Assembly (NCBI GenBank): GCA_005503215.1 | Contig: SCNS01000003.1 | Span: forward strand, 1-64,000 | Source of the DNA: Sphingomonadaceae bacterium 3R27C6 | Lineage (GTDB): Bacteria > Pseudomonadota > Alphaproteobacteria > Sphingomonadales > Sphingomonadaceae | Direction of reading: 5' to 3' | Length of the DNA stretch: 64,000 nucleotides | Shown: positions 1-13,338 of the stretch, piece by piece | Position numbering within the stretch: position 1 is the first letter of the stretch | Layout of the letters: each line of letters starts with the position of its first letter | Position numbers and translations under genes: made by a program | The notes under the pieces: model-generated | The model's input: the letters and a program-made list of their open reading frames with translations, nothing else | The model's database searches: none | Told to the model about the DNA's origin: nothing

Positions 1-1330
1 CCGCCTCCCCCGCCCAATTGCCGGCTGCGTCGCGCGCCCCCGCAACCAAAGCCGCAGTCGACCCCGCCAGCAACACCCCCAGCGCATCGAGCATCGCCAG
101 CTGCGCCGCCCCCAGCGGCCCGCGCACGTCGGCAATTGGAACGCTCGCCGCACCCAAAGCCGTCACCGTCGCGGCATCATAAGCGCAAATCCGCCCGCCA
201 CTCGCGATCCACCACCAGGGCTCGCCGACCTGGAATTTCAGCGGCAAGCCAGCGGCCGCGCCAATCGCCACAAACGCCCGCGCGACCAGCTGCAAATATC
301 CCATCGCCGTCACATTCGCCGGCGACAGCAGGGTCGACGGCGGCTCCCACCCGGTCAGCGCGGGCAACCCGTCGCTCGCCCGCTGTTTCCAGCCGTCCGG
401 GCAATAGGCGTCGAACAGCTCGTAGGAGAGCGACCAGATCACCCCCAACCCGGCCTCGCGGCACGCCGACGCAAACCCCGCATGCCACGCCGCACACGGC
501 GCGTTCAGCACGCCGCCCGCCACGCTCGTGGAAAAGCCGCCGCCCGCCGCCTCGAGCCGCATATAATGGCTCATCCCGACATAATGGACGACATCGCCGC
601 GATAACCCAATTGCACCATCTGCCGCACCAGCCGCGCCGGGGTCAGGTGATAGCTATCGTCATAGCCGCTCGCGATTCCGATCCCCTGCTCGGGCATCAC
701 AACATCGCCGATCGCCAGCACCGACCCCGACCCCGAGCAGGCGATCGCGCTCATCTCGACCCAGCCCGCGACCGGCGCCCCCAGCACGCCGTCGCCGCCG
801 TCATAGGTCGGCGGCACCAGCGAGATGAACATCCGGTCGATATCGCCCGCCCACACCGGGTCGGCCTCACCGGGAAGCAGGAAGCCGCCGTCGAGCGCAT
901 CGAAATCGAGGCTGACGACGGCATCCTCGGCCGTCCCCTCGGCATAGTTCCAGAGCCGCACATACCAGGCGCGCGGGGCGCCGCCCGCATCGCGACCCTC
1001 GATCGTCAAGGTCGGCCCGTGCAGCGCATCGAGCGGCTTCACCCCGCCGGACCGCCACCGGAATTTGAGCTGCGTGTGCCGGAAATCGCGGCTGGTCTCA
1101 TAGGCGAGCAAAGGATGATCCCAGCGATCTTCGCTTTCCCAGATCAGCCCGGCCAGATCGTGCTTCCGGTAAAACACCGTCTCGACCCGTAGCGCCCCCG
1201 GCGTATCGCTCGTCACGCTCGCCATCATCGGCCGCGCGAAATCGACCGTCCAGAAGCGCGGATCGAACCGCTTGAGCCAGCCCTTGCGGTGATGCGGCTC
1301 GGCGGCTGCAACCAACGCCCAGCCCATCAT
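1..1330 (-). CDS. Large phage/GTA tail protein with TIM-barrel-like region (partial, 3' end outside window)
   Basis: The reading frame starts at ATGATGGGC behind a GGGAGGG ribosome site and stays open to the left edge (about 443 residues seen). The N-terminal part has a beta-rich tail-protein look (FDPRFWTVDFARPMMA, then a KFRWRSGGVKPLD segment). From about residue 205 it looks like a sugar-hydrolase-type barrel (YGDDSYHLTP-like region, LGVIWSLSYELFD, FQVGEPWWW). It resembles proteins I know as 'non-contractile tail sheath / TIM-barrel' proteins of sphingomonad phages; that name comes from memory and is not proven here. It occupies the tail-tip position where Rhodobacter GTA has gp12-gp15. 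Two nested palindromes separate it from the tape-measure gene. Confidence 0.75.
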   Translation of the reverse strand, partial: MMGWALVAAAEPHHRKGWLKRFDPRFWTVDFARPMMASVTSDTPGALRVETVFYRKHDLAGLIWESEDRWDHPLLAYETSRDFRHTQLKFRWRSGGVKPLDALHGPTLTIEGRDAGGAPRAWYVRLWNYAEGTAEDAVVSLDFDALDGGFLLPGEADPVWAGDIDRMFISLVPPTYDGGDGVLGAPVAGWVEMSAIACSGSGSVLAIGDVVMPEQGIGIASGYDDSYHLTPARLVRQMVQLGYRGDVVHYVGMSHYMRLEAAGGGFSTSVAGGVLNAPCAAWHAGFASACREAGLGVIWSLSYELFDAYCPDGWKQRASDGLPALTGWEPPSTLLSPANVTAMGYLQLVARAFVAIGAAAGLPLKFQVGEPWWWIASGGRICAYDAATVTALGAASVPIADVRGPLGAAQLAMLDALGVLLAGSTAALVAGARDAAGNWAGEA

Positions 1331-1354
1331 GCGAACCCTCCCCACCCGCTTGCG

Positions 1355-1418
1355 AGTGTCGGGTCGGTCATGCCCCCGGCATGACCTGAACAGTCCGGGG
1401 GACTGTTCACCCGACACT
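1355..1418. repeat. 64-bp nested palindrome, copy A
   Basis: The outer arms AGTGTCGGGT / ACCCGACACT (10 bp, perfect) enclose two perfect 9-bp hairpins: GGTCATGCC-CCC-GGCATGACC and GAACAGTCC-GGG-GGACTGTTC. Single C and T bases form the junctions. Copies B and C have the same 64-bp architecture with different arm sequences. The 1331-1623 stretch between tail genes holds only copies A and B and GC-rich linker. Confidence 0.95.
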
Positions 1419-1489
1419 GGGCAGCGAGACTTGCGAGCGAGCTCGCTAGTCGCAGCGGGGCGGGCAGCCGCGCCGCCGCATGCCCACCC

Positions 1490-1553
1490 AGTATCAGGTC
1501 GGATGTGCCCCCGGCACATCCTTGATCAGCCGGGGGCTGATCAACCTGATACT
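1490..1553. repeat. 64-bp nested palindrome, copy B
   Basis: Outer arms are AGTATCAGGT / ACCTGATACT. Inner hairpins are GGATGTGCC-CCC-GGCACATCC and TGATCAGCC-GGG-GGCTGATCA, all perfect. It lies in the same orientation as copy A, 71 bp away. It is followed directly by a simple CCCTCCCGC-aa-GCGGGAGGG type palindrome. Confidence 0.95.
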
Positions 1554-1623
1554 CCCCTCCCGCAAGCGGGAGGGGGGCTGGGCCGTCGCCTTGGATATCG
1601 GAACTTATTGTCATATCTCGGCC

Positions 1624-2208
1624 CTATTCCTCACCCGCCGCGACCGCGCGCCGCACCGCGCGCGCCAGCTGCCGTCCCGTCTGCGCCAGCCGCTGCGGTT
1701 CGCTCCCCGCATCGCCCCGCACATTCACCGTGATCGCGATATTGCGCACCCCGCCGGCGCCCGCCGCCTCGATCCGCCCGCTCGCGGTGGGCACGAACAG
1801 CTCGGGTCCGCGCTCGCCGACGCGATAGGCGCGCCCCGCGCTCACCGGCCCGCCCGTCGCCCGCCCCGGCGCCCCGAACAGCGCCATCGCGATCGAGGTG
1901 CCGAGCGACAGCAAATTGCCGCTTCCGCTGCCCCCCGAACCCCCGCCCGTCGTCGCGCCGATCCCGTTCGAAATCGCCGCGCGCGCAATATCGGCCATCA
2001 CCGACAACGCGAGCCGCTTCAGATCCTCGAACCCCATCTTGCCGCTGACGATCGCACGCGACAGCGCCCGCTCGATCGCGCGCCCCGCCTGATCGGCCTC
2101 GGCAACCAGCGGCCCACCCAGTTCGGCCCGCAGCGCCGCAATGTCGCGCCGAAACGCGCCCGTGTCGGCGCGCACCGTCACCATCATCTCGTCGACCTCG
2201 TCACCCAT
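1624..2208 (-). CDS. Short tail tape-measure protein (GTA gp11-like)
   Basis: A 194-aa protein with an N-terminal helical segment (VRADTGAFRRDIAALRAEL), a Gly/Ser-rich middle (about residues 84-98) and the C-terminal GGPVSAGRAYRVGERGPELF segment. That last segment is typical of the end of phage tape-measure proteins. The length is close to the short (about 220 aa) tape measure of Rhodobacter GTA rather than a full phage ruler, so the tail should be short. The start overlaps the end of the preceding chaperone-type gene by 8 bp, so translation is probably coupled. Family assignment rests on motif and position. Confidence 0.85.
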   Translation of the reverse strand: MGDEVDEMMVTVRADTGAFRRDIAALRAELGGPLVAEADQAGRAIERALSRAIVSGKMGFEDLKRLALSVMADIARAAISNGIGATTGGGSGGSGSGNLLSLGTSIAMALFGAPGRATGGPVSAGRAYRVGERGPELFVPTASGRIEAAGAGGVRNIAITVNVRGDAGSEPQRLAQTGRQLARAVRRAVAAGEE

Positions 2209-2404
2209 CGGGAAACCTCTCCATCATCGCTGCCAGCGCCGCGCCGTCGAGGGACGCCTCGGCATCCGCCTCGACCCAGCCCGCCAGCACCGCGCGCACA
2301 TCGGCAGGCGTCGCCGCCCAATACTCATCGGGCCGCCATCCCGCGACACGCGCCATCACGCCCGCCAGCGTCACCGCTGCAGGCCCCAGCCGGTCGCCCG
2401 CCAC
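2201..2404 (-). CDS. Small tail assembly protein (GTA gp10.1-like, TIGR02216 type)
   Basis: A 67-aa protein starting at a GTG behind AGGGA, just after the stop of the gp10-like gene. The core LAGVMARVAGWRPDEYWAAT is the hallmark of the small tail-assembly chaperone that sits between gp10 and the tape measure in GTA clusters. It probably acts together with the upstream gp10-like protein during tail-tube assembly on the tape measure. Size, position and the GWRPDEYW motif agree; no enzymatic residues are expected. Confidence 0.8.
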   Translation of the reverse strand: MAGDRLGPAAVTLAGVMARVAGWRPDEYWAATPADVRAVLAGWVEADAEASLDGAALAAMMERFPDG

Positions 2405-2405
2405 C

Positions 2406-2714
2406 TCATCGTCCCTGCAAAATCTGCCCGAGCAGCACGCGCAGCGCCGGCGTCGCCGCTGCCAGCCCCTGCGCGACGACCGCCTCGCCGACCGCCTCGC
2501 GCGCCAGCGTCTCGGGCCGATCCTTCACACAATGCCAGAACAGGCACGCAAGCTCCCCCAGCCCCAACCGCCCGCCCGCAGCGCGCTCGACCAGCGCGAA
2601 CAGCGGCCCCAGCTCGGCCTCAGCCGCAACCAACGCGGCAAAACTCGGACGCAGCACATGCACCTGTTCCCCGATCCGAAATTCCGCTTCGCCGCGCAGC
2701 ATGTTCGCGCTCAC
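2406..2714 (-). CDS. GTA gp10-family tail protein (tail assembly chaperone type)
   Basis: A 102-aa protein from a GTG whose GTGA overlaps the stop of the major tail protein. The N-terminal half (RGEAEFRIGEQVHVLRPSF, then ALVAAEAELGPLFALVER) and the LACLFWHCVKDRP segment match the GTA-gp10 family. In GTA and related siphophages this position encodes the chaperone that keeps the tape measure soluble while tail-tube subunits polymerise. It is translationally coupled to the gene before it. Confidence 0.85.
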   Translation of the reverse strand: MSANMLRGEAEFRIGEQVHVLRPSFAALVAAEAELGPLFALVERAAGGRLGLGELACLFWHCVKDRPETLAREAVGEAVVAQGLAAATPALRVLLGQILQGR

Positions 2715-3118
2715 AGGCTCGCCACCGCGCCGCTCGATTCCAGGTTCAGCGTGTAATTGCGCTCGCCATTATAATCGCCGGCATAGTCGAGCCGCGTGAC
2801 GAGGAAGCGCCCACGCATCCGTTCGCCGCTTTCGAAGCTCAATTCATAATCGTCGATGACGCCCGAAAGCGCATGACCGCGCAGCCGCACCTCGGCGTCG
2901 GATCCGGTAAAAATGCCCGCCGCGCTCACCGAAACCGATCGCACCCCGGCGCCCGACAGCAGCTCGCGCCAGCCGCCCGAATCCTTCGTCGTGACATTCA
3001 CCGCTTCGCCGTTGACCGACATCTGCGTGGTGCGCAGGCCCGCGACCGTCCGATAGGTCGGCGGCGCTTCGCCGTCGCCGATCTTGAGCAGAAAATCGCT
3101 CCCATTTTCAATCGCCAT
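2711..3118 (-). CDS. Major tail (tube) protein, TP901-1/GTA gp9 type
   Basis: A 135-aa protein. The MAIENGSDFLLKIGDG start, the RTTQMSVNGEAVNVTTKDSG segment, the WRELLSGAGVRSVSVSAAGI segment and the NYTLNLESSG end are characteristic of the TP901-1-type major tail protein that stacks as rings to form the non-contractile tube. The length matches the family. It is the first gene after the opposite-strand ORF and is followed by the two chaperone-type genes. Confidence 0.92.
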   Translation of the reverse strand: MAIENGSDFLLKIGDGEAPPTYRTVAGLRTTQMSVNGEAVNVTTKDSGGWRELLSGAGVRSVSVSAAGIFTGSDAEVRLRGHALSGVIDDYELSFESGERMRGRFLVTRLDYAGDYNGERNYTLNLESSGAVASL

Positions 3119-3165
3119 CGTCTAATCTCCTCAGGGAAAAAACACTGCTAACGGGGAGTCGCAGG

Positions 3166-3504
3166 ATGCTTTTGATCACAACATTGATTTTGGCCGTCAT
3201 GGTGCAGTCGCCCTCGGCGACGGTCGACACGACGCGCGCCGCTTTCACCAAATGCCTGCGCACCGACATGAAGAAGGCGCTCGAGGCCAAGATGGAAGAG
3301 GCCGAATATGAAATGCAGGTGAAATCGAACTGCGCGACCGAGCGCGACGCGTTCCGCAAGGCGGTGATCGCGCTGGGCAAGTCAGGCGGCGATTCCGAAA
3401 AGGTCGCGGGCGAAGACGCCGACATGCAGATCGACGATTACCACGCCAATTTCACCGACAAGTTCAAGGACTATAAGTCCACGAACACGATGCCGGGCGA
3501 GTAA
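3166..3504 (+). CDS. Small exported protein of unknown function, opposite strand inside tail operon
   Basis: A 112-aa protein with a short hydrophobic N-terminus (MLLITTLILAVMVQSPSA) that looks like a signal peptide, followed by a charged, helical, Lys/Glu-rich body with two Cys (KCLR and SNCATER) that could form a disulfide. A GGGGAG sequence precedes the ATG. It lies between the major tail protein and the DUF3168 gene but on the other strand, so it is not part of the structural operon. It behaves like a cargo ('moron') gene or an insertion. I do not recognise the family beyond a feel of a sphingomonad hypothetical. Confidence 0.7.
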   Translation: MLLITTLILAVMVQSPSATVDTTRAAFTKCLRTDMKKALEAKMEEAEYEMQVKSNCATERDAFRKAVIALGKSGGDSEKVAGEDADMQIDDYHANFTDKFKDYKSTNTMPGE

Positions 3505-3514
3505 GCGATCTCAT

Positions 3515-3650
3515 CCTCCCTGTGGCGAAGCCATGGGGAGGGGGACCGCTCGCGAAGCGAGTGGTGGAGGGGCCGCGACGGTAGCACCAATAGCCCCTCC
3601 GTCAGCGGCTAAAGTCGCTGCCACCTCCCCACCGCTGCGCGGCAGGGAGG
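3515..3650. repeat. Multi-stem intergenic repeat (CCTCCC...GGGAGG type)
   Basis: The outer arms CCTCCCTG / CAGGGAGG enclose further paired segments: GGGGAGG with CCTCCCC, GAGGGGC with GCCCCTC, and an inner CGCTCGC-gaa-GCGAG hairpin. It fills the whole gap between the exported-protein ORF and the DUF3168 gene. It could end transcription from both sides. Confidence 0.75.
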
Positions 3651-3651
3651 A

Positions 3652-4044
3652 CTATTCCGCCAAACACCGACACCGCACAACCACCTCGTGGCGCCAGCCG
3701 CCGTCGCGCGCAAAAGTAAAGCGCGTGCGGATCGTTCGCGCCCCGACCACCGACCAGGCGCCGGCCGGGCCGCGCAGGGCCGTAGCGACGGCCTCGACGC
3801 GCGCGGCGGCCTTGTCGTCGATCGCGCTGCCGACGCCGACCAATGTCAGCGTCAGGCGGATTTCGCGCCCCGCCCGGTCCTTGGTCCCCCAGTCGCCGCC
3901 TTCCGCCGTACCGACCGCCACATAGGGCGCGCTCACCCGCGGCGGCGTGCCGTCGAATATTCCGTGGACCATCGCCGCCAGCGCGTCATCACGCGTCAGC
4001 AGGTCAATCGCCCGCGCGCGCACCGCGCCCTCCGCGCTCGTCAT
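3652..4044 (-). CDS. Tail terminator / tail completion protein (DUF3168, GTA gp8-like)
   Basis: A 130-aa protein. The ATG at 4044 is chosen because its ATGA overlaps the stop of the head-tail connector gene. The core VAVGTAEGGDWGTKDRAGRE followed by RLTLTLVG and a C-terminal FTFARDGGWRH is typical of DUF3168 proteins, which cap the tail tube at the head-proximal end. It is the last gene before a multi-stem repeat and the opposite-strand ORF break the operon. Confidence 0.88.
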   Translation of the reverse strand: MTSAEGAVRARAIDLLTRDDALAAMVHGIFDGTPPRVSAPYVAVGTAEGGDWGTKDRAGREIRLTLTLVGVGSAIDDKAAARVEAVATALRGPAGAWSVVGARTIRTRFTFARDGGWRHEVVVRCRCLAE

Positions 4045-4586
4045 TGCCCGCCCCCCAGCGTCAACCGCCGCCACGGCTGCCACAGCGCCGCGATCGCCGC
4101 CGGCGGGGCCGCGCCCGCGCCGTCACGCGCCTCATGCAGATGCTGCGTCATCCGGACGATACCCTGCCGGATCGCTTCGGGAATCCCGTTCGCGCCTTCG
4201 GCAATTCCCGCGCGATAGGCGACGCGCACCCGCGCCGCGCCGCGCGGGTCGTCCAGTGTCACCCGCGCGGTGCCGTCGCGGCCGACCGTCGTCCGGTAAT
4301 CGCCATCGCCCAGCGCCACCTCCTCGCCGCCGGGCAACAACAAGGTTACGCCGTCGATCGCGACGACCGGTCGCGCGCCGGGTTGGACCACCCCGTTTTT
4401 CAAGGGCAAAAGCTCCTCGACCGCGCGAATGACCAACCACTGCCCGATAAAGGCCTCGCAGATATTGGTCGCCGCGCGGACAAGGCCCGCGACCACGGCA
4501 TCGTCGATCGTCGCCCCCAGCCGCAACCAGCCGCGCGCTTCGTTCAGGCTCACCGGGGCATCGCCCGGCGTCGGACTTTCCGCCAT
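4041..4586 (-). CDS. Head-tail connector / adaptor protein (gp6-like)
   Basis: A 181-aa protein with its start fixed by an ATGA overlap with the preceding gene. The N-terminal VSLNEARGWLRLG...DDAVVAGLVRAATNICEAFIGQWL segment is the standard phage gp6/HK97 gp6-like connector fold, and the C-terminal GIPEAIRQGIVRMTQHLHEAR helix fits. It sits between portal and tail as a ring that docks the tail. Order (connector then DUF3168) agrees with the GTA scheme, but no gp7-like head-closure gene is visible between them. Confidence 0.85.
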   Translation of the reverse strand: MAESPTPGDAPVSLNEARGWLRLGATIDDAVVAGLVRAATNICEAFIGQWLVIRAVEELLPLKNGVVQPGARPVVAIDGVTLLLPGGEEVALGDGDYRTTVGRDGTARVTLDDPRGAARVRVAYRAGIAEGANGIPEAIRQGIVRMTQHLHEARDGAGAAPPAAIAALWQPWRRLTLGGGQ

Positions 4587-4867
4587 CACCGTTCCTCCAC
4601 CCGCACCGTCATCGATCGCTCGTCGATCTGGCCGTCGCTCATCGTCACCCGGTTGGTCACGCGATAGACATGGCCGGCGATCCCGCCCGCCAGCGTCGCG
4701 GTCGTCCGGGTCAGGTCGTGCGCGGCGGCGGCCACCGCCACGCCGCCATCCTCGTCCGGCGCAACCAGCCATGCGCTCGCCAGCACCGCCTGCCCATCGG
4801 CATAGGCCGCACCCCAGTCGAACTCATAATCGATCCGTGATCCCGGGTCCTTCACCATCATCGTCAT
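4586..4867 (-). CDS. Fibre-tail adaptor-like small protein
   Basis: A 93-aa protein from an ATG behind AAAGGAG. It begins MTMMVKDPGSRIDYEFDWG and contains a beta-sandwich-like stretch (HVYRVTNRVTMSDGQIDERS). It resembles the small 'phage fiber-tail adaptor' proteins I recall from sphingomonad prophages, which join a fibre to the tail. Its place next to the fibre gene supports that. The ATGA overlap with the connector gene shows it is part of the structural operon. Confidence 0.65.
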   Translation of the reverse strand: MTMMVKDPGSRIDYEFDWGAAYADGQAVLASAWLVAPDEDGGVAVAAAAHDLTRTTATLAGGIAGHVYRVTNRVTMSDGQIDERSMTVRVEER

Positions 4868-4883
4868 GGCCGCTCCTTTCTGG

Positions 4884-5039
4884 TCAGGGCTTGCGAACCG
4901 CCACGCGGCGGCGGGTTTCAGGCGCCACGGGGACTGCGGTCTGGGCTGCCGCGGGTTCGGGACCACCCCATTCGCTGGGCAAGTCGCGCCGCTGGGCATC
5001 GCCGATAGCGCGCGACGCAAGCGCCGAACCGGCGATCAC
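4884..5039 (-). CDS. 51-aa hypothetical protein between fibre and adaptor genes
   Basis: A GTG at 5039 overlaps the fibre stop as GTGA, and the frame runs 51 codons to TGA at 4884. The product is basic and Ala/Pro-rich, ending RRRVAVRKP, with no recognisable domain. The coupling and the snug fit (17 bp before the adaptor start) argue it is translated. It may help fibre assembly, but that is only a guess from position. Confidence 0.5.
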   Translation of the reverse strand: MIAGSALASRAIGDAQRRDLPSEWGGPEPAAAQTAVPVAPETRRRVAVRKP

Positions 5040-6375
5040 GACGCCGTCTCCAGCGCCGCCAGTCGCCGCTCCTGCGCAGCGATCAGGAACAGCGCCAGCT
5101 GGTCGGGCCGGATTCCAAAGCGGTCGTGCACCGCGCCCCCCTCATCGGCCCACGCGTCCCAGCACAGAAAGGCATAGGGCGTGTCGCCCGGCCGTCCGGC
5201 GGGGTCCAGCGGGGCGATCAGGCCTTCGTCGGCCATGATCGTCCACACCGCCTGCGCGCGGACGCCAAAATGCAGGCGCGCGCCATCCGGCCCCTTTTTC
5301 GCGATCGCATCGTTCCACTGGAAAAAGCCCAGCTCGGCGGCGATGCGCGATGCGGCCCGCAGTTCCGCGCCGCTCGCCGCGCTCCGCCACGTCTTGTCGC
5401 GCGTGTCCGATGTGTTGATGACGCCGGTGGCGGAAAAGATGACCGACCATCGATTGAAACCGACGCCCAGCGACTGCGCATTGTCGCCGCCGGGCCGCAC
5501 GAAGGTGCCATCGACGACCAGCAATGTCGTGTCGGCCGTCGCGTCATAGACGGAAAAGCAGGACTGGCTGGCATTGTGGATGCCCGACACCAGGTCATAA
5601 ACCCGCCCGCCGGCGGCGCTGTTGCGGATACGCAGGCGCGCCACGATCTGGTCCGTGCCCGCGATCTCCAGCCGTGTCGCCGGATTGGCGGTGCCGATCC
5701 CGACCAGGCCGCCGCTCGCGATCCGCATCCGCTCGACCCCGCCGGCGGCCAGGCCGATGCTGTCGGGGGCGGGGCGGAACAGGCGCAATCGCCGTCGTCG
5801 GCAAAACCGATCGCGGGGGCGGCCGCGGTGCCGTCCTGCGCCGCCAGCCCCCCGCTCAGCATGTGGCGCCCGCTCGCATTCCGATACGCCAGCGCCGTCA
5901 GCGGAATATTGACCCAGCCGCCGCCGCGCCGGACGGTCATCAGGTCGCCGTCGGCCCCCGTCGCCGCGCCGCCATGCGTCGTCGACAGCGGCTGCTTAGC
6001 CTCGAGCGCGCTCGCCAGCGCCGCGATATCGTCGCTCAGCCCCGCCGCGCCTGCATCGCTCGCGGCGAACCAGTCGGCGGCAACCGTCAGCGCGATCGTC
6101 TTGAGCCCCGCCGCGAAATCGACGCGCGCGCTACCGGCGGACGAGGCGACGACCGCCTCGCGTTGCAACCGGCCGGAGCCATCGATCCGGCCCATCCCGA
6201 CCTCCCATTGCTGGGGCTGCGCGATGCCCGCGACGGCATAATGAAATGGCGTGCCCGGCGGCACCGCATCGACGAAACGGCGATGCCCGGGGACCGCGCC
6301 GGTCGGCGTCAGCGGTCCGCTGCCGCCGTCCTGGCACGTCTCGCGCACCAGGTCGGCGAAAAATTGGGTCGGCAT
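5036..6375 (-). pseudogene. Tail fibre with S74-type chaperone C-terminus, frameshifted
   Basis: The ATG at 6375 opens a frame encoding an N-terminal fibre region (MPTQFFADLVRETCQDGG, FHYAVAGIAQPQQWEVGMGR). A one-base loss near 5784 then shifts it. The continuation in the next frame to 5036 carries GGLVGIGTANPATRLEI, TSDTRDKTWR, ELGFFQWND and FGVRAQAVWTIM. These are hallmarks of the peptidase S74 intramolecular chaperone that trims itself from trimeric fibres. Restoring one C near 5784 gives one protein of about 445 aa reading ...DGDCGLFRPAPDS across the join. Either the gene is broken or the sequence has an error. Confidence 0.8.
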
Positions 6376-6415
6376 GGCGGGGCCATCCTTCTCTTGATGT
6401 CATGGAAGAATTGAC

Positions 6416-6453
6416 GCCCGGCGACCCCCGAAAGGGATAGGGGCCGGCCGGGC
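6416..6453 (-). terminator. Strong hairpin between capsid and fibre genes
   Basis: On the minus strand GCCCGGC...GCCGGGC (7 bp) encloses CCCC/GGGG around a CTTTC-containing loop. There is only a weak T-rich tail (GTCAATTCTT), so it may be a partial terminator or an mRNA processing/stability stem. It sits just after the highly expressed capsid gene. Confidence 0.45.
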
Positions 6454-6472
6454 GCCCATCGCGCCAGCAAGA

Positions 6473-7615
6473 TCAGCTGGCGGCGAACTTCATCAGCTTG
6501 ATGGCCTGCGAATCGATGATCGCACCGCCGACCCTTTTGGTTGCGTAGAAATGCACGAAGGGCTTGTTGCTGAACGGATCGCGCAGGATGCGCGTCTCGC
6601 CGCGGTCGGCGACCAGGTAACCGGCGCGAAAATTGCCGAACGCGATCGACAGGCTGTTCGCGCCGACATCGGGCATATCCTCGGCCTCGACCACCGGATA
6701 ACCCAGCAGCGTCGCCGCCTGCCCCTCGACCATCCCCGGCTGCCAGATAAAGGCTCCGTCGCTGGTCTTGAACTTGCGGATGCGGCTCAGCGTATCCGAA
6801 TTCATCACCCAGCTCGCACCCTGCCGGTACGGCGCCTTCAGCGAATGGACCAGCTCGACCAGCTTGTCCTGCGGGTTCGACGCCGGGAACGCGCCCGCCG
6901 TCCCCGTCGCCAGATGCTGGAGCGTCCCGAACGCCCGCACGCTGTCGATCTCGTTCGTCGTCGTATAGGTCAGGAAACCCTTCGGCCGGTTCGTGCCGTT
7001 GCCGTTCACGAACGCACTGCCCTCGGCGACCGCGAATTCGCGGCCGAGCTGCTCGGCCAGCCAGTCCTCGACGTTGAACATCGCATCGTCGAGCATCGCC
7101 TGGCTCGCCGCCGGATTGGCGTAGAGCTCGCCCGACGGCGGGGCGATCTCGGCAAAGCTGCGCGTCGCGGTCTCGGGCCGCGCCGCGGTCTCGCCGACCC
7201 AGCCCGCACCCATCGATCCCGTCGCGATCAGCTTGCGATAGCCGCTCGTCCCCGTCTGCACGACCGTCGCGATCGACCGGATCGGCGACAGCGCCTTCAG
7301 CGTCGCCGCGATGCTGCCGTCGATCTCGCGCGGCACCGCAAAGCCGCCGTCGCCGCCCGACGCCCCCGACAGGCTCTTCATCTCGACGCCCGCATCGATC
7401 CCGCGGCGCAGGTAGCGCTCGACAAAGGCATCGCGCGCCGGATCGGCCGCCTTCGCCCCATCGAGCGGCAGCCGCGACGCCGCCACCGTCTGTGCATCGA
7501 CCTGTGCCTTCAGCGCCGCGACCGACGCCTTGAGCTCATCGACCGCCTCGGCCGCCAGCACCGCATCGAACGCACCCTCGAGCGCATCCGCCTTCACTTC
7601 CATCTCCATATCCAT
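6473..7615 (-). CDS. HK97-type major capsid protein (GTA gp5-like)
   Basis: A 380-aa protein. The ATG at 7615 sits behind AGGAGGAG, just after the protease stop. The N-terminal about 100 residues form the delta-domain-like helical scaffold (EVKADALEGAFDAVLAAEAVDELKAS split by a likely protease site). The mature fold follows: SGASGGDGGFAVPREIDGSI, ELYANPAASQAMLDDAMFNV, WVMNSDTLSRIRKFKTSDG, and the C-terminal FNIAFGNFRAGYLVADR-like segment. These are classic HK97 phage-capsid features. The protease that processes it is encoded directly upstream. Confidence 0.95.
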   Translation of the reverse strand: MDMEMEVKADALEGAFDAVLAAEAVDELKASVAALKAQVDAQTVAASRLPLDGAKAADPARDAFVERYLRRGIDAGVEMKSLSGASGGDGGFAVPREIDGSIAATLKALSPIRSIATVVQTGTSGYRKLIATGSMGAGWVGETAARPETATRSFAEIAPPSGELYANPAASQAMLDDAMFNVEDWLAEQLGREFAVAEGSAFVNGNGTNRPKGFLTYTTTNEIDSVRAFGTLQHLATGTAGAFPASNPQDKLVELVHSLKAPYRQGASWVMNSDTLSRIRKFKTSDGAFIWQPGMVEGQAATLLGYPVVEAEDMPDVGANSLSIAFGNFRAGYLVADRGETRILRDPFSNKPFVHFYATKRVGGAIIDSQAIKLMKFAAS

Positions 7616-7620
7616 GCCCG

Positions 7621-8010
7621 TCACTCCTCCTGAAAATTTACCGCAATCACGCGCGCGAGCGGCTGCATCGGCGCCGCCACCAAACTCACTTCGGCGAGGT
7701 CGAGCCCCAGCAGCTCGCGCGGGCCGTTCCCGCGCGCAGCCGTCACCCGATATCCAAAGGACAATCCCGTCAGCGCCCCGCGCGCGACCAGCGCCGCCGC
7801 CGTCGGATGCGTCACCCGCGCGACAACGCGCAGCCCGCGCGCATCCTCGGCCAATGTCTCGATGACGCCGATCACCGCCCCCGGCCGATGCTGCCAAAGC
7901 AAAGGCACCACGCGCCGCTCGCGCAAACTCGCCGCAAAAGCCCCCGCCCGCACCACATCGCCCCCGCGGTCGACCCGATCGAACACCGAAGCATATCCGG
8001 CGAACCGCAA
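7621..8010 (-). CDS. HK97 family prohead protease (GTA gp4-like)
   Basis: The core LRFAGYASVFDRVDRGGDVV, VVPLLWQHRPGAVIG, ALTGLSFGYRV and DLAEVSLVAAPM contains the family His and Ser regions of the U35/S78-type prohead protease. The frame is open to 8247, but residues upstream of LRFAGYA derive from the 64-bp palindrome copy C and GC-rich linker. I therefore take the TTG at 8010, preceded by GGGAGGGGGGA, as the likely start (129 aa). The insertion may have replaced the original start region. It cleaves the capsid delta domain during head maturation. Confidence 0.85.
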   Translation of the reverse strand: MRFAGYASVFDRVDRGGDVVRAGAFAASLRERRVVPLLWQHRPGAVIGVIETLAEDARGLRVVARVTHPTAAALVARGALTGLSFGYRVTAARGNGPRELLGLDLAEVSLVAAPMQPLARVIAVNFQEE

Positions 8011-8028
8011 TCCCCCCTCCCGCAAGCG

Positions 8029-8092
8029 AGTTTCAGGTCGGGCAGGCTCCCAGCCTGCCCTGATCGATCCGGGGGATCGATCACCTGAAACT
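8029..8092. repeat. 64-bp nested palindrome, copy C
   Basis: Outer arms are AGTTTCAGGT / ACCTGAAACT. Inner hairpins are GGGCAGGCT-CCC-AGCCTGCCC and GATCGATCC-GGG-GGATCGATC, all perfect. It lies immediately upstream of the prohead protease start, in the gap between that gene and the small membrane protein gene. Confidence 0.95.
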
Positions 8093-8126
8093 GGGGTTAG
8101 GGGGTGGGCAGCGGCACCCGCCGCCC

Positions 8127-8435
8127 TCACCGCAGCAACCCCGGCAGCCCCAGCTTCATCGCGAGGCCCACCACCAGCAGCGCCAGCCCGCACCGCACCG
8201 CCCAGTCGACCGCGGCCTTCCACGCGCTCGTCTTGGCATCGCGCCACGCGCCGAGCAGTTGCCGCAAATCGCTCACATCGTCGCGCGCCGCCTCATCGGC
8301 GAGCCCCAGCCGCGCCAGCGCTCGCCGCGCCCCCAGCTCGCTCGCCTCCTCCACGACCGCGCGCAGCAACGCCGCGTCGGGCGCACTCGTCCCCGCCAGC
8401 GCGATCAACCGCGCCAGCGCCTCTTCCTCATCCAT
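8127..8435 (-). CDS. Small phage/GTA protein with C-terminal membrane segment (gp3.5 position)
   Basis: A 102-aa protein: an acidic helical N-terminus (MDEEEALARLIALAG), a central Ala/Arg/Glu-rich helix pair, and a C-terminal hydrophobic segment (CGLALLVVGLAMKLGLPGLL) that could span the membrane. It lies between portal and protease, as does gp3.5 in Rhodobacter GTA. I recall the name DUF6127 for such sphingomonad proteins, but this is from memory. Function unknown. Confidence 0.6.
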   Translation of the reverse strand: MDEEEALARLIALAGTSAPDAALLRAVVEEASELGARRALARLGLADEAARDDVSDLRQLLGAWRDAKTSAWKAAVDWAVRCGLALLVVGLAMKLGLPGLLR

Positions 8436-8451
8436 GTCGATGTCCTCAAAT

Positions 8452-8473
8452 CGTCATCCCAGCGAAAGCTGGG
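8452..8473. repeat. Half copy of the CGTCATCCC palindrome family
   Basis: CGTCAT followed by the hairpin CCCAGC-gaaa-GCTGGG lies in the 68-bp gap between the portal stop and the small membrane protein start. It looks like one arm of the longer GTCATTCCCGCGAAAGCGGGAA element found at 23069. Confidence 0.6.
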
Positions 8474-8503
8474 ACCGTTATCGTCGGGCACGCCGCCAGG
8501 GAG

Positions 8504-9610
8504 CTAACCCACCGCCAGCAGCGCCTTCTTCTCATCCGCCGTCAGCCAGTCCGCCGCCGACACCTCGCGCCACAGCGCCATCCGGTCCTCGGCCAGCGCC
8601 GGCACCTTGTCCAAATCCACGCGCAGCTCGGCGCCCTCGAACCAGCCCGACAATCCCTGCGAAATCGCCCCCAATATCTTCGCGCACAAAGGCAGCACCG
8701 TCAGCCGCCACAGCGCGCGATTGGCCTCGCGATAATTGGCATAGGTCGCGTCCCCGGGCAGCCCGAGCAGCATCGGCGGCACCCCAAACGCCATCGCAAT
8801 CTCGCGCGCGCTGCTGTCTTTCAGCGCGAGGAAATCCATCTCGGCCGGCGACAACGACAGCGCCTGCCACCTGAGGCCGCCCTCGAGCAGCAACGGCCGC
8901 CCGGCATTCGCCCCGCCCGCGAAACTCTCGGCCAGCTCCTCGCGGAGCCGGTCGACCTGCTCGGCCGACAAGGGCATCCCCTTGTCGCCCGGATCATGCA
9001 CCAACGCCCCCGAAGGCCGCGCCGCATTGTCGAGCAGCGCCGCATTCCACCGCGCCGCTGCGTTGTGGGATGCGATCGCGCCCGAAGCCGCGCCCAGGCA
9101 CCCCGCGCCATAATGATCGTCGAGCGGATGCAGCGCCTTCACATGCACCACCGCCACACGCCCCGCACCATCCTCGGCGGGCAACACCGCCGCCGTCCCG
9201 CCGGCCTTGTAGCGATAGGCCACCGGCCACCCGCGGCCATCGGCCTCGACCGTCACCCGCTCGGGCCGCAGCGCAAACAGCTCCGCGGGAGCCCCCGCGC
9301 CATCGGCCAATATCTGCACATAGCCATTGCCGTGCAGCAGCAACTGCGACGCCAAAGTCTCGACCAGCCCCTGCCCACCCGACGTCGCGGAAACGAGCGC
9401 CGCCAATGCCGGATCGCTCGCCACCACCGGCGCGCTACCGGCGGCCTCCGCCACCAGCCGCACCGCCCGCTGGACGATCGCATTGGACAAATACCCCTCG
9501 CGAACCTGCGCCTCCCAACTGAGCGGCGCGGGCGCCGACCAATTCCCATACACACGCGACAAAGCGGGCCGCGCAGGATGCTGCGCGGCCTTGCGGCCAA
9601 ACCAGTTCAT
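8504..9610 (-). CDS. Phage portal protein, HK97 type (GTA gp3-like)
   Basis: A 368-aa protein. The ATG at 9610 (MNWFGRKAAQHP) is chosen because GGAGGAG lies 8 bases before it. Portal motifs include the N-terminal NAIVQRAVRLVAEAAGSAP, HVKALHPLDDHYGAGCLGAA, the SARDIAMAFGVPPMLLGLPG-like segment and NYREANRALWRLTVLPL. The protein forms the dodecameric DNA entry ring at one capsid vertex and binds the terminase encoded upstream. Length is typical for the GTA/HK97 family (about 390 aa). Confidence 0.95.
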   Translation of the reverse strand: MNWFGRKAAQHPARPALSRVYGNWSAPAPLSWEAQVREGYLSNAIVQRAVRLVAEAAGSAPVVASDPALAALVSATSGGQGLVETLASQLLLHGNGYVQILADGAGAPAELFALRPERVTVEADGRGWPVAYRYKAGGTAAVLPAEDGAGRVAVVHVKALHPLDDHYGAGCLGAASGAIASHNAAARWNAALLDNAARPSGALVHDPGDKGMPLSAEQVDRLREELAESFAGGANAGRPLLLEGGLRWQALSLSPAEMDFLALKDSSAREIAMAFGVPPMLLGLPGDATYANYREANRALWRLTVLPLCAKILGAISQGLSGWFEGAELRVDLDKVPALAEDRMALWREVSAADWLTADEKKALLAVG

Positions 9611-9638
9611 GAAAGTCTCCTCCGACCACCACAATCTC

Positions 9639-9713
9639 GTCATTGCGAGCGCAGCGAAGCAATCCAGAGCGGCTTGTCACACACTGGATTGCTTCGCTGC
9701 GCTCGCAATGACG
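9639..9713. repeat. Palindrome with perfect 30-bp arms between portal and terminase
   Basis: The left arm (9639-9668, starting CGTCATTGCGAGCGC) and right arm (9684-9713, ending GCGCTCGCAATGACG) are exact reverse complements around a 15-bp spacer. The motif GTCATTGCGAGCG...AAGCAATCC is a widely dispersed bacterial palindromic repeat type in my memory. It fills the gap between terminase and portal genes. Confidence 0.92.
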
Positions 9714-9719
9714 GACGAA

Positions 9720-11063
9720 TTAAACCCGCGTCACTCCCGGCGCCCGCCCCGTTCGCAGCCCCTCCAGCAAAGCCGCCAGCGCCCAAACGCACGCATCCGC
9801 CCGATCGGGCGAGCGCCCCGGCCCCGCATAGCCGCCGCCGATCTGCAACCCGCAAAGCTGGTCCTCCAGCGCCGCGAAAACCCCCGCATGCACTACCTGC
9901 CCACGCTCATACGCCAGCGCCACCGGCTCCGCCCTTCGCGCCTTGCCGACGCTAGCATGCACCGGCACCACCGGCAGCGCGCAATCGGCCTGCGCCAAGG
10001 TGCTCGCCACCATATCGCCGCCCATATTGCTCTCGGCCACGACCCGGTCTGCTCCCCAGCGCGCCGCCGCGCTCGCCACCGCCTGCGCCCACATATGCGG
10101 CGGCGGGTTCAGGGCGCTCGCATCCTCGACCACCGCCAGCCGCCCATCGCGCAGCAACGCCGCGACGACGATCCCGCATGCATCGCCATGCGCCGTCGCC
10201 GGCGGATCGACGCCGATCACGACGCGCGCCGGCTTACCGATGCTTTTCGCGCTCACCCGGCACCGTTCGACCAGCACGCGCGTCCACAGCGCGCCCTCGA
10301 CATCCTCGAGCATCTCGCCGTCCAGTTCCTGCCGCCCCAGCCGCGTCCCGCCATAGGTTTCGAGCATCGCGCTCACGAAAAATTCGGGCAGCCAGGGATT
10401 CTCGCCCGTCTTGCCCAGCGTCTCGACCTTTCCCGGCGCCGCCAGCACCCGCTGCATTGCCGCATTGACGCGCGGCGTCGTCGTCACCACGACGCGCGGC
10501 CGCTCGCCAAGCCGCATCCCCATCATCAGATTGTCCCACGCCGCCTCGCCGCGCCGCCATTTGGCCAGCTCGTCGCACCAGGCGAAATGATGTTCGGGGC
10601 CGCGCAGTGCCTCGCCCGCCTCGGCCGAATAGAGCGTCGCGACCGCCCCGCTCGAAAAGCGCAGCTCGCGCCGCGCATTCACCCAGCGCGGTTCCTCGTC
10701 GGCGCGCGCGACCGCGAGCAGCCCGCTCGGCCCCTCGATCATCACGCGCTGCCCGTCGACCTGCGTCGCCGCGACCAGCGCGATGCGCGCATCGCCGTTG
10801 CTCCGCGCAACCTCGCTCACCCATTCGGACCCCGCGCGCGTCTTACCGAAACCGCGCCCCGCACGGATCAGCCAGATGCGCCAGTCGCCCGGCGGATCGC
10901 GCTGCCCGTCATTCTCGAACCCGAACCAGCGCGTCGTATATTCGGCGGCCTGCGCCTTGCTTAACCCGCGCAGCACCAGCCGCCGCCCCCGCTCGTCGAG
11001 CCGCAAAAACCGCCGCAGGATATCGTCCGACTGCGCGCGCAGAGCAGCCACCTTCGGCGTCAT
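9720..11063 (-). CDS. Terminase large subunit (GTA gp2-like)
   Basis: A 447-aa packaging motor. The ATPase part has Walker A GRGFGKT (about residue 70), Walker B-like HHFAWCDELAKW and the coupling segment VVVTTTPR. The nuclease part has the acidic residues of VVIGVDPPAT, the VVAESNMGGDMV segment and the C-terminal PDRADACVWALA. It pumps DNA through the portal and cuts it. The start overlaps the stop of the small-terminase gene by 4 bp. The catalytic set looks intact, so packaging may be functional. Confidence 0.95.
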   Translation of the reverse strand: MTPKVAALRAQSDDILRRFLRLDERGRRLVLRGLSKAQAAEYTTRWFGFENDGQRDPPGDWRIWLIRAGRGFGKTRAGSEWVSEVARSNGDARIALVAATQVDGQRVMIEGPSGLLAVARADEEPRWVNARRELRFSSGAVATLYSAEAGEALRGPEHHFAWCDELAKWRRGEAAWDNLMMGMRLGERPRVVVTTTPRVNAAMQRVLAAPGKVETLGKTGENPWLPEFFVSAMLETYGGTRLGRQELDGEMLEDVEGALWTRVLVERCRVSAKSIGKPARVVIGVDPPATAHGDACGIVVAALLRDGRLAVVEDASALNPPPHMWAQAVASAAARWGADRVVAESNMGGDMVASTLAQADCALPVVPVHASVGKARRAEPVALAYERGQVVHAGVFAALEDQLCGLQIGGGYAGPGRSPDRADACVWALAALLEGLRTGRAPGVTRV

Positions 11064-11608
11064 GCCCCGCCATCCCTGCCCGCGCTTTCGTTTCCCGTCG
11101 CCGCGCCTTCGTGCCGTGCGCGCTGCCGCTCGACCATCGCGATCCGCTTCAACAGCACCGCATCGGTCTCCTCCTGCGTCGCGACCCGGGACAGGCGCCT
11201 TTGGTGCCCGCGCCCCTGCTGGACGCTGCGCCGGTGCAGGTTCATCACCTCGATCGCCTGCGCGACCGTCATTTTCTCGACGGGCTCCTCGCGCTCGTCG
11301 AGTTCCAGCTCGCCCAGCACCTCCAGCGCGCGCCGCGCCAGCGCCATCTCCAGCCGTTCATATCCGATTTCGAGCGCCGCCTGCCATTGCCGCGCAAATT
11401 CGGCATCGCGCTGCCGCACCGAATAGGCGCTGCCGTTGCACATCTCCGCCGCCTTATGCGCGCGGGTCACGTTACAGCTATGCGCCAGCTCGGTCAGAAA
11501 CGCCTTGCGCCGCGCCGCGGTCCAGCTGACCGGCTTCGCCCGCCGCCGCTGCACCGGTCCGCTCTGGAAGGCGGCAATCTCCTCATCCTCGTCGCCCGCA
11601 CCACCCAT
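11060..11608 (-). CDS. Small terminase-like protein (GTA gp1-like)
   Basis: A 182-aa protein with a GGGAG site before the ATG. The N-terminal WTAARRKAFLTELAHSCNVTRAHKAAE segment is a helix-turn-helix-like DNA-recognition region. It is followed by a long charged helix (FARQWQAALEIGYERLEMALARR) and a heterogeneous, Arg/Glu-rich tail. The family initiates packaging by holding DNA for the large subunit. It is the first gene of the head/tail operon. Confidence 0.85.
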   Translation of the reverse strand: MGGAGDEDEEIAAFQSGPVQRRRAKPVSWTAARRKAFLTELAHSCNVTRAHKAAEMCNGSAYSVRQRDAEFARQWQAALEIGYERLEMALARRALEVLGELELDEREEPVEKMTVAQAIEVMNLHRRSVQQGRGHQRRLSRVATQEETDAVLLKRIAMVERQRARHEGAATGNESAGRDGGA

Positions 11609-12965: not shown

Positions 12966-13338
12966 GCTCCTTGCCGCACGCGCGGCTTATGGAGCGGAAC
13001 TTGGACGGCGCGCCGTCTGAACGGGCGTCCGCATTGCCCGCACCCCTGTTTTACCGCGTCCGCCCGAAAGGGGAAAGACAGACTTTGTTTCAGCGCGAAG
13101 CATGAATATCGGCGACGGGGTGGAAAACTGCCGTAGCGCTACCTCACTTCCGTCATCCCGGGCTTGACCCGGGACCCGCCTATTCCTTCAAGAAGGCAGG
13201 CCCCGGATCAAGTCCGGGGTGACGATGATGGATAGGCAACTTCCGGTCGAAACCGGCGGTTCTCTTCTTGGCCCGCGATGGGGCGCGGAAACGCGGCGTC
13301 TTGCATGCATTGCGCTATTTTTTTGCCCCTTCCGCGCC
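12966..13338. other. Non-coding stretch upstream of chrA
   Basis: These 373 bp hold the chrA 5' region, a GGCGCGCC-containing GC-rich stretch and the 13151-13225 palindrome. I see no gene and no convincing promoter. The short open frame across the palindrome looks accidental. Confidence 0.6.
13151..13225. repeat. CGTCATCCCGGGCTTGACC palindrome, copy 1
   Basis: Arms CGTCATCCCGGGCTTGA and the matching TCAAGTCCGGGGTGACG end enclose an inner GGCGGG/GCAGGCC-like region with TTCCTTCAAGAA in the centre. A near-identical copy lies at 18573 and a diverged one at 34188. The similarity between copies 1 and 2 extends past the palindrome (GATGATGG), so they share recent ancestry. Confidence 0.9.

Follow-up and report, generated by a model that had tools for sequence, protein, structure and literature searches.

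The 64,000-nucleotide stretch considered here (Sphingomonadaceae bacterium 3R27C6, assembly GCA_005503215.1, contig SCNS01000003.1, positions 1 to 64,000 of the forward strand; hereafter the window) contains three copies of a 64-bp palindromic element, which we call the core. We propose that the core is probably a non-autonomous mobile DNA element of the Sphingomonadaceae that lands in palindromic stems and is moved by a putative factor acting in trans. Comparison of the copies and of their occupied and core-less sites shows that one unit has entered many host repeats, usually palindromic, in both orientations and mostly by an exact replacement of 4 bp, and that its paired positions change together. 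The preliminary description of this DNA had missed both the host repeats and the 4-bp replacement, which are additions to it; the mobile palindrome that it had put forward is supported by the dispersed copies, the core-less host sites and the arrivals at orthologous sites.

Architecture and covariation of the core

The three copies present in the window are the following.

1355 to 1418, plus strand: core copy 1, a 64-bp three-way-junction palindrome that stands for CTCC (minus strand) of its host repeat; core-less orthologous sites in L391, L398 and L402.
1490 to 1553, plus strand: core copy 2, 64 bp, standing for TTGG (minus strand) of the composite host repeat that it shares with copy 1; core-less orthologous sites in the same three loci (L391, L398, L402).
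8029 to 8092, plus strand: core copy 3, 64 bp, standing for CTCC (minus strand) of the CCCTCCCGC..GCGGGAGGG host repeat in a phage-like cluster; core-less in L157, L158, L162, L175, L176 and L178.

All three can be parsed as 10 + C + 9-CCC-9 + T + 9-GGG-9 + 10, with arms that are exact reverse complements of each other. When the 64 kb were scanned for any outer stem of at least 7 that encloses a pair of adjacent hairpins with stems of 6 or more, these three cores alone came out, and nothing in 10 first-order Markov shuffles of the window. The preliminary description had reported three exact 64-bp copies of one nested geometry, perfect pairing of every arm and outer arms covarying at positions 4 and 7, all of which the arm-by-arm parse bears out. 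The 10-bp outer stem that it gave is correct as parsed and has to be refined to 9 or 10 bp, because A55 of the core can pair with either T10 or T33; DNA folding of copies 1 and 3 favours the 9 + 10 form (outer stem of 9 bp) over the 10 + 9 form. It had also described the inner arms as differing almost completely: the change is real and the total freedom is not, since the pairs 12-32, 19-25 and 42-46 are invariant over 20 diverse copies, in which the junction and the loops are nearly fixed as well.

DNA folding of both strands gives the same three-way junction, with z values from -7.0 to -8.6 in six folds, none of 200 shuffles doing as well, and the same junction is obtained on both strands by RNA folding (four folds, copies 1 and 3). 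The reverse complement of the core retains the architecture, with the CCC-loop hairpin first, the GGG-loop hairpin second and the junction bases shifted. It is possible that the CCC and GGG loops, both nearly invariant, could kiss.

The covariation was evaluated on the 20 diverse copies (28 pairs, 560 cells), in which 97.9% of the cells are paired, 21 of the 28 pairs show change on both sides, and the standard-pair cells comprise 159 two-sided changes versus 5 one-sided ones. Three of the observed values, namely the paired percentage, the two-sided cell count and the covariation score, were reached by none of 500 shuffles; two weaker counts were matched by 4 and 16 of the 500, and pairing falls to 28-42% when the partners are slid. 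The larger set of 197 unique cores from the fetched DNA contains 5332 Watson-Crick cells out of 5516 (96.7%), together with 53 G-T, 56 A-C and 75 other cells, a pairing that is to be taken as an upper figure since these cores were gathered on their structure. At least 23 of the 28 pairs and three of the eight unpaired bases were required, and part of the loci were found by a pattern fixing the loops and part of the junction, so that in this set the pairing, the loops and the junction look more conserved than they are. The loci obtained by the genome pattern scan are a lower bound. The compensatory change already claimed for this DNA, structure being kept over sequence, is confirmed by the predominance of two-sided cells; further copies exist and their arms are paired.

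Where a core and its nearest neighbour are two bases apart, the difference is one complete base pair in 21 of 32 comparisons (reciprocal pairs counted twice). Such whole-pair differences far exceed what independent point changes would give, and either hairpin self-templated repair or selection for folding would produce them. Furthermore, the modules are reshuffled among the 197 unique cores, among which there are 61 versions of the first hairpin, 90 of the second and 96 distinct outer arms, the same two hairpins being found on up to eight different outer arms.

Replacement of four base pairs at the host sites

The occupied contexts amount to 235 distinct ones, of which 233 have 16 nt on both sides. 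A core-less counterpart, defined as 14 nt on each side with at most 4 mismatches in all and sought in 2.38 Mb of DNA, exists for 180 of the 233. The best counterpart has exactly 4 bp in the place of the core in 136 of these 180 contexts, and ties including 4 add 15 more. At most of the sites that could be compared, the core therefore stands in for exactly 4 bp and no target is duplicated; wherever the boundary is drawn, the site has gained 60 bp net. The outermost pair of the core directly abuts the host. The lost 4-mers vary, as do the hosts (GGAG, CTCC, CGGT, AGAG, CTCT, CGGG, AGCT, CATG, TCGG and others), and one host site can hold cores in both orientations, e.g. CAGG[GGAG]GGGTT and AACCC[CTCC]CCTG.

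Among the 90 distinct contexts with a 4-bp counterpart, 66 have the replaced 4 bp inside a perfect stem no shorter than 7 bp, versus 10% of 288 random positions. When the windows of this stem test are shifted by 8-24 bases, the proportion ranges from 9 to 67%, with peaks at -12 (67%) and +12 (57%) that we attribute to the repeat itself, through its opposite arm or its next hairpin.

Host repeats and orthologous sites

The flanks of the cores are mostly palindromic repeats themselves, of which core-less copies are present in the same genomes. The host repeats are common and appear to be older than the cores. Those of the window are listed below.

1336 to 1583 (outer limits approximate), no strand assigned: composite host repeat of copies 1 and 2, the ends of which are of hairpin type and enclose a GCGAGACTTGCGAGC..GCTCGCTAGTCGC hairpin; core-less composite in L391, L398 and L402.
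8013 to 8028, plus strand: left part (CCCCCTCCCGCAAGCG) of the host palindrome of copy 3, with core-less orthologous sites.
8093 to 8109, plus strand: right part (GGGGTTAGGGGGTGGGC) of the host repeat of copy 3, with core-less orthologous sites.
3513 to 3572, minus strand: core-less copy of another type of host repeat (CCCCTCCACCACTCGCTTCGCGAG-CGGT-CCCCCTCCCC...AGGGAGGAT), copies of which in other genomes have a core in the place of CGGT.

At the site of copies 1 and 2, the genomes G075, G003 and G002 (L391, L398 and L402) carry this composite repeat too, following the same gene; TTGG occupies the copy 2 site and CTCC the copy 1 site. Of the 29 other loci compared there, 22 are without any repeat, and L401, L403, L408 and L410 have partial, divergent or other repeats. 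At the site of copy 3, a clean core-less host palindrome is present in at least six of 29 other loci (those listed above for this copy), with CTCC in the place of the core in L158, L175 and L178. The nearest relative, G006 (L157), has flanks 90-94% identical to those of the window and a C-run one C shorter; the remaining loci have degenerate or different repeats, or in some cases nothing. Because core-less orthologous sites exist for all three window copies, the cores look like lineage-specific arrivals in pre-existing repeats.

Two further observations were made at the copy 3 site. Six loci (L163, L164, L165, L169, L182 and L184) have unrelated repeats there, of the GTTCACGCGGAGGCGCGGAG type and in some cases with CCCTTCGACAAGCTCAGGG, as in a hot spot for small repeats. 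An IMG/VR contig (L335, 7572-7635) carries a different core at what is apparently the same intergenic site, by the right flank that it shares with L176.

Size and distribution of the family

The genome from which the window is taken contains five cores, three of them in the phage-like cluster. A first covariance model, built from four of its cores and searched in 60 related genomes, matched 24 of the 36 genomes of the same genus at E <= 0.01 (its own genome included, and one match being weak) and none of the 24 genomes from other genera of the order. A second model, based on the 20 diverse copies, matched 59 of 396 genomes of the order, belonging to 11 of 84 genera and all to one family, the Sphingomonadaceae, as well as 8 of 398 genomes in a sample of the phylum, again all Sphingomonadaceae. 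The scans of the order and of the phylum scored 13 candidates per genome, so that copy numbers derived from them are lower bounds, and the stricter filters applied with more than 40 genomes may miss weak matches in the 60-, 396- and 398-genome scans. The named records among the listed matches are Sphingomonas, Sphingopyxis, Sphingobium and Allosphingosinicella. Genome G012 holds about 34 copies (68 hits, the two strands being counted); among the 32 fetched, 13 share one identical core and 7 another, and the 13 stand at different loci. The covariance search that had been suggested as a check on the initial three copies thereby brought out a dispersed family. One record, labelled Bacillus sp. 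2B10 (L267), has a core in a sphingomonad-like host repeat and is probably mislabelled or contaminated.

Genomic surroundings

The minus strand of the window carries, from 1 to 11100, a conserved phage-like cluster in which Pfam families for capsid, S78 protease, DUF6127, portal, terminase and tail tube are recognised; among the eight cluster proteins searched, two are without a match. The window cores sit between genes of this single cluster. It is most likely a gene transfer agent cluster, and two of its proteins are matched in 44 and 47 of 60 genomes of the genus.

The core is also found within coding genes. In Sphingomonas parapaucimobilis, core and host repeat lie, with the frame open, inside glyS and a cysteine desulfurase gene (L352, 2001-2064; L356, 1994-2057), the net gain of 60 bp allowing the reading frame to be kept. 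In the case of glyS, the alignment is broken into two pieces by the core-bearing segment in 24 of 29 genomes and runs through it in the other 5; in two of the 24, G293 and G823, the two pieces join without a gap, so that S. parapaucimobilis has 54 extra residues. The 12 glyS loci fetched contain no core, and several of them, including the 5 that align through, have other repeat-like in-frame segments there, which suggests that the site tolerates such arrivals. These segments occur in L372-L376, L378-L380 and L382, as if small repeats found a landing ground in one loop of this essential enzyme.

A search of 50,697 phage records with one composed query gave no core match. Matches are carried by 18 IMG/VR contigs, of which at least two (L335 and L346) resemble the phage-like cluster of the window, the other 16 not having been read gene by gene; in view of this resemblance, the contigs are only weak evidence for transport by phage. 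The matches in plasmid records are seven, all from S. parapaucimobilis, and the six that were opened belong to strain YK209 (NZ_CP155749, 155750, 155751, 155753, 155756 and 155759). At least two of these "plasmid" records carry genes such as glyS and sufB and are probably pieces of the chromosome.

A model for the movement of the core

The model we propose combines the folding of the element with that of its landing site. The element would be recognised as an extruded three-way junction, by its conserved GG/C junction, its T linker and its CCC and GGG loops. A strand-cutting enzyme or recombinase, supplied in trans, would make two cuts, 4 nt from each other, in a palindromic stem, and the folded element would be swapped in for the 4-nt piece of the stem. 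The arms would remain perfect through hairpin self-templating, selection for folding, or both. Copies also seem to spread along with the host repeat.

Identical or near-identical cores stand in different hosts (L193 and L213 versus L268; L270 versus L330, with 1 difference), which implies that the core can move independently of its host. In G012, the 13 identical copies are confined to one host and to its CATG sub-type, which accounts for just 7 of the 20 core-less copies of that host counted by the same flank pattern; this confinement suggests that the core travels with its host as well.

Several observations weigh against the model. No enzyme has been identified and no transposition has been observed. 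The best gap is other than 4 in 29 of the 180 contexts (3 bp in 12, 5 in 5, 6 in 3 and other values in 9); several of these gaps resemble changes in the length of G- or C-runs, but not all are so explained. A core-less counterpart is lacking for 53 of the 233 contexts, and some targets, such as AGCT in the TTCGACAAGCTCAG repeat, lie outside a long perfect stem. Moreover, host contexts that are related by descent do not represent independent events, and the 13 identical cores of G012 in one host sub-type mean that copying may be in part a movement or a conversion of the host repeat.

The main rival, which we consider unlikely, dispenses with a dedicated enzyme. Homologous recombination or gene conversion between host repeats, together with replication template switching at the hairpins, would distribute the cores, and the 4-bp replacement would be inherited from a few founding events. 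It remains the main rival because the common host repeats offer the homology that it needs; the host sub-type shared by the identical cores of G012 is in its favour, and so are the paired changes that arise as units in the nearest-neighbour comparisons, as hairpin-templated correction would give. However, hosts that differ in sequence show the 4-bp replacement repeatedly and with different 4-mers, which is not readily explained by host recombination or template switching, and the near-identical cores in different hosts also argue against it.

A movement of the core as a REP (repetitive extragenic palindromic) or REPIN (REP doublet) repeat by a Y1 HUH transposase (RAYT, REP-associated tyrosine transposase) is very improbable. 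The small size of the palindrome and its mosaic clusters would be in keeping with it, and the Y1_Tnp domain (PF01797, RAYT fold) is indeed present in 4 of the 24 element-positive genomes of the genus and in 10 of 22 other element-bearing genomes. But it is absent from the genome of the window, from G012 despite its many copies, and from the other 12 of those 22, including G238, G328 and G330, each with at least 13 candidate cores, whereas one of the 12 element-negative genomes of the genus possesses it. The TnpA-REP-type enzyme that the preliminary description had suggested looking for is thus not borne out by the distribution of Y1_Tnp. In addition, 4 bp are replaced by the element. The REP head is given as GT(A/G)G followed by one imperfect hairpin in PMC2817692; the cores have no GTAG-type head, starting mostly with AG or GG and directly with an outer stem that encloses two hairpins.

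The fetched DNA was also examined for a parent or a partner of the core. It contains no longer or split element, the one candidate pair being the two full cores of L282, and the unpaired half elements encountered were rejected, being either full cores with imperfections or chance matches. Four pairs of cores have a spacing of 300-5000 bp, in three loci (L282, L300 and L346), and no transposase was recognised by eye between them in the open reading frames of L282 and L346 (two of the three loci, with no family search). The two cores of L282 (461-1255) are near-identical, in direct orientation, 731 bp apart and in similar host sequence (GCC[core]CGTC.GTCG). The preliminary description had considered that the palindrome may be copied as single-stranded DNA. 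As for replication, the cores of four genomes show no bias in orientation, with 14 leading versus 14 lagging among the matches listed; these 28 positions were assigned with dnaA as the origin and the opposite point as the terminus, two genome lengths being rounded and the GC skew not checked.

That the core is a miniature inverted-repeat transposable element (MITE) of a classical DDE insertion sequence is highly improbable: it is short, non-coding and multicopy, with terminal inverted repeats, but it causes the loss of 4 bp with no target duplication, its ends vary widely in sequence while remaining paired (96 distinct outer arms for 197 cores), and no longer parent with the same ends was found in the fetched DNA, whole genomes not having been searched.

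DNA or RNA structure

In a stem that works as RNA, G-U on its own strand is expected to be better tolerated than A-C. A small control, the acceptor stems of 17 tRNAs from the fetched DNA, has 8 G-T versus 1 A-C, whereas the 197 cores have practically equal numbers of the two (53 versus 56). The equality is found again when each cluster of cores is counted once (46 G-T versus 45 A-C) and in the covariance-model set, which is less affected by the structural filters (25 G-T and 28 A-C, the latter counted from a table). This balance suggests that double-stranded DNA is the level at which the structure is important or is formed. In Rfam, at the gathering score, the window matches only tRNA and chrB-b, neither at the cores, and five other loci give no match. 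The chrB-b RNA (RF03086) lies at 12994-13041 of the window, minus strand, with 52.8 bits.

A structured or cis-regulatory RNA kept by selection, such as a terminator or an mRNA-stabilising element, would account for the strong fold on both strands, the strong covariation and the position of the window cores between genes of one cluster. We nevertheless regard it as having hardly any likelihood: besides the lack of wobble preference and of an Rfam match at the cores, the architecture is the same in the reverse complement, one host site is occupied in both orientations, presence is patchy at orthologous sites, and the core is also inside two annotated coding genes. The structured RNA contemplated in the preliminary description is, on these grounds, abandoned. 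More generally, a hairpin cannot be taken for a functional RNA on its compensatory changes alone, and weighing G-T against A-C mismatches can tell the two cases apart.

Significance and comparison with known systems

Bacterial genomes commonly carry small palindromic repeats, whose movement for the most part lacks an explanation. The family described here offers clean before-and-after sites, with its fixed geometry, its sharp 4-bp exchange and its many core-less counterparts, so that the reaction can be stated and tested. By its kind it belongs to the small palindromic mobile repeats, and there is a real chance that its mode of insertion is new; a search of the open-access literature, with subscription papers and preprints outside its scope, found no description of the 64-bp family. 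Could it represent a new class of bacterial mobile DNA, in which an extruded palindrome is what travels, as a three-way junction of like architecture on either strand, and also what it lands in, and in which a 4-bp target piece is exchanged for a 64-bp folded unit by a novel strand exchange, without duplication or simple insertion? We put this forward tentatively, with somewhat more doubt than confidence. If an enzyme does perform the exchange, folded DNA would be cut and joined in a manner new among the elements compared, and the family would point the way to a DNA-writing activity specific for structure.

MITEs generally possess terminal repeats of conserved sequence and duplicate their target; the 64-bp element shows neither feature. 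As for the mitochondrial double-hairpin elements, we know of no outer stem enclosing their hairpins. The core shares with MITEs (reviewed in PMC10969869) its non-autonomous nature, its short length, its many copies and its inverted repeats. It shares with the yeast GC clusters (GC42; PMC4478555) and with the mitochondrial double-hairpin elements the character of a very short, non-coding mobile hairpin whose structure is conserved and whose modules shuffle; unlike GC42, which that paper discusses with an AG target footprint, it entails the loss of 4 bp, and the yeast clusters are mitochondrial. The REPs, the bacterial interspersed mosaic elements (BIMEs) and the REPINs with their RAYTs (PMC2817692) resemble it as short palindromic intergenic repeats that form mosaic clusters and whose arms vary while pairing is kept; it differs from the REPs by its three arms, its want of such a head, its 4-bp exchange and the absence of a Y1 gene from the genome of the window and from G012. 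Finally, the Rickettsia palindromic elements, as reviewed in PMC10969869, are alphaproteobacterial palindromes that likewise enter coding genes in frame, as the core does in glyS and the cysteine desulfurase gene; they measure about 150 bp, and the 64-bp core is set apart from them, by description, through its fixed geometry, its nesting within repeats and its replacement of 4 bp.

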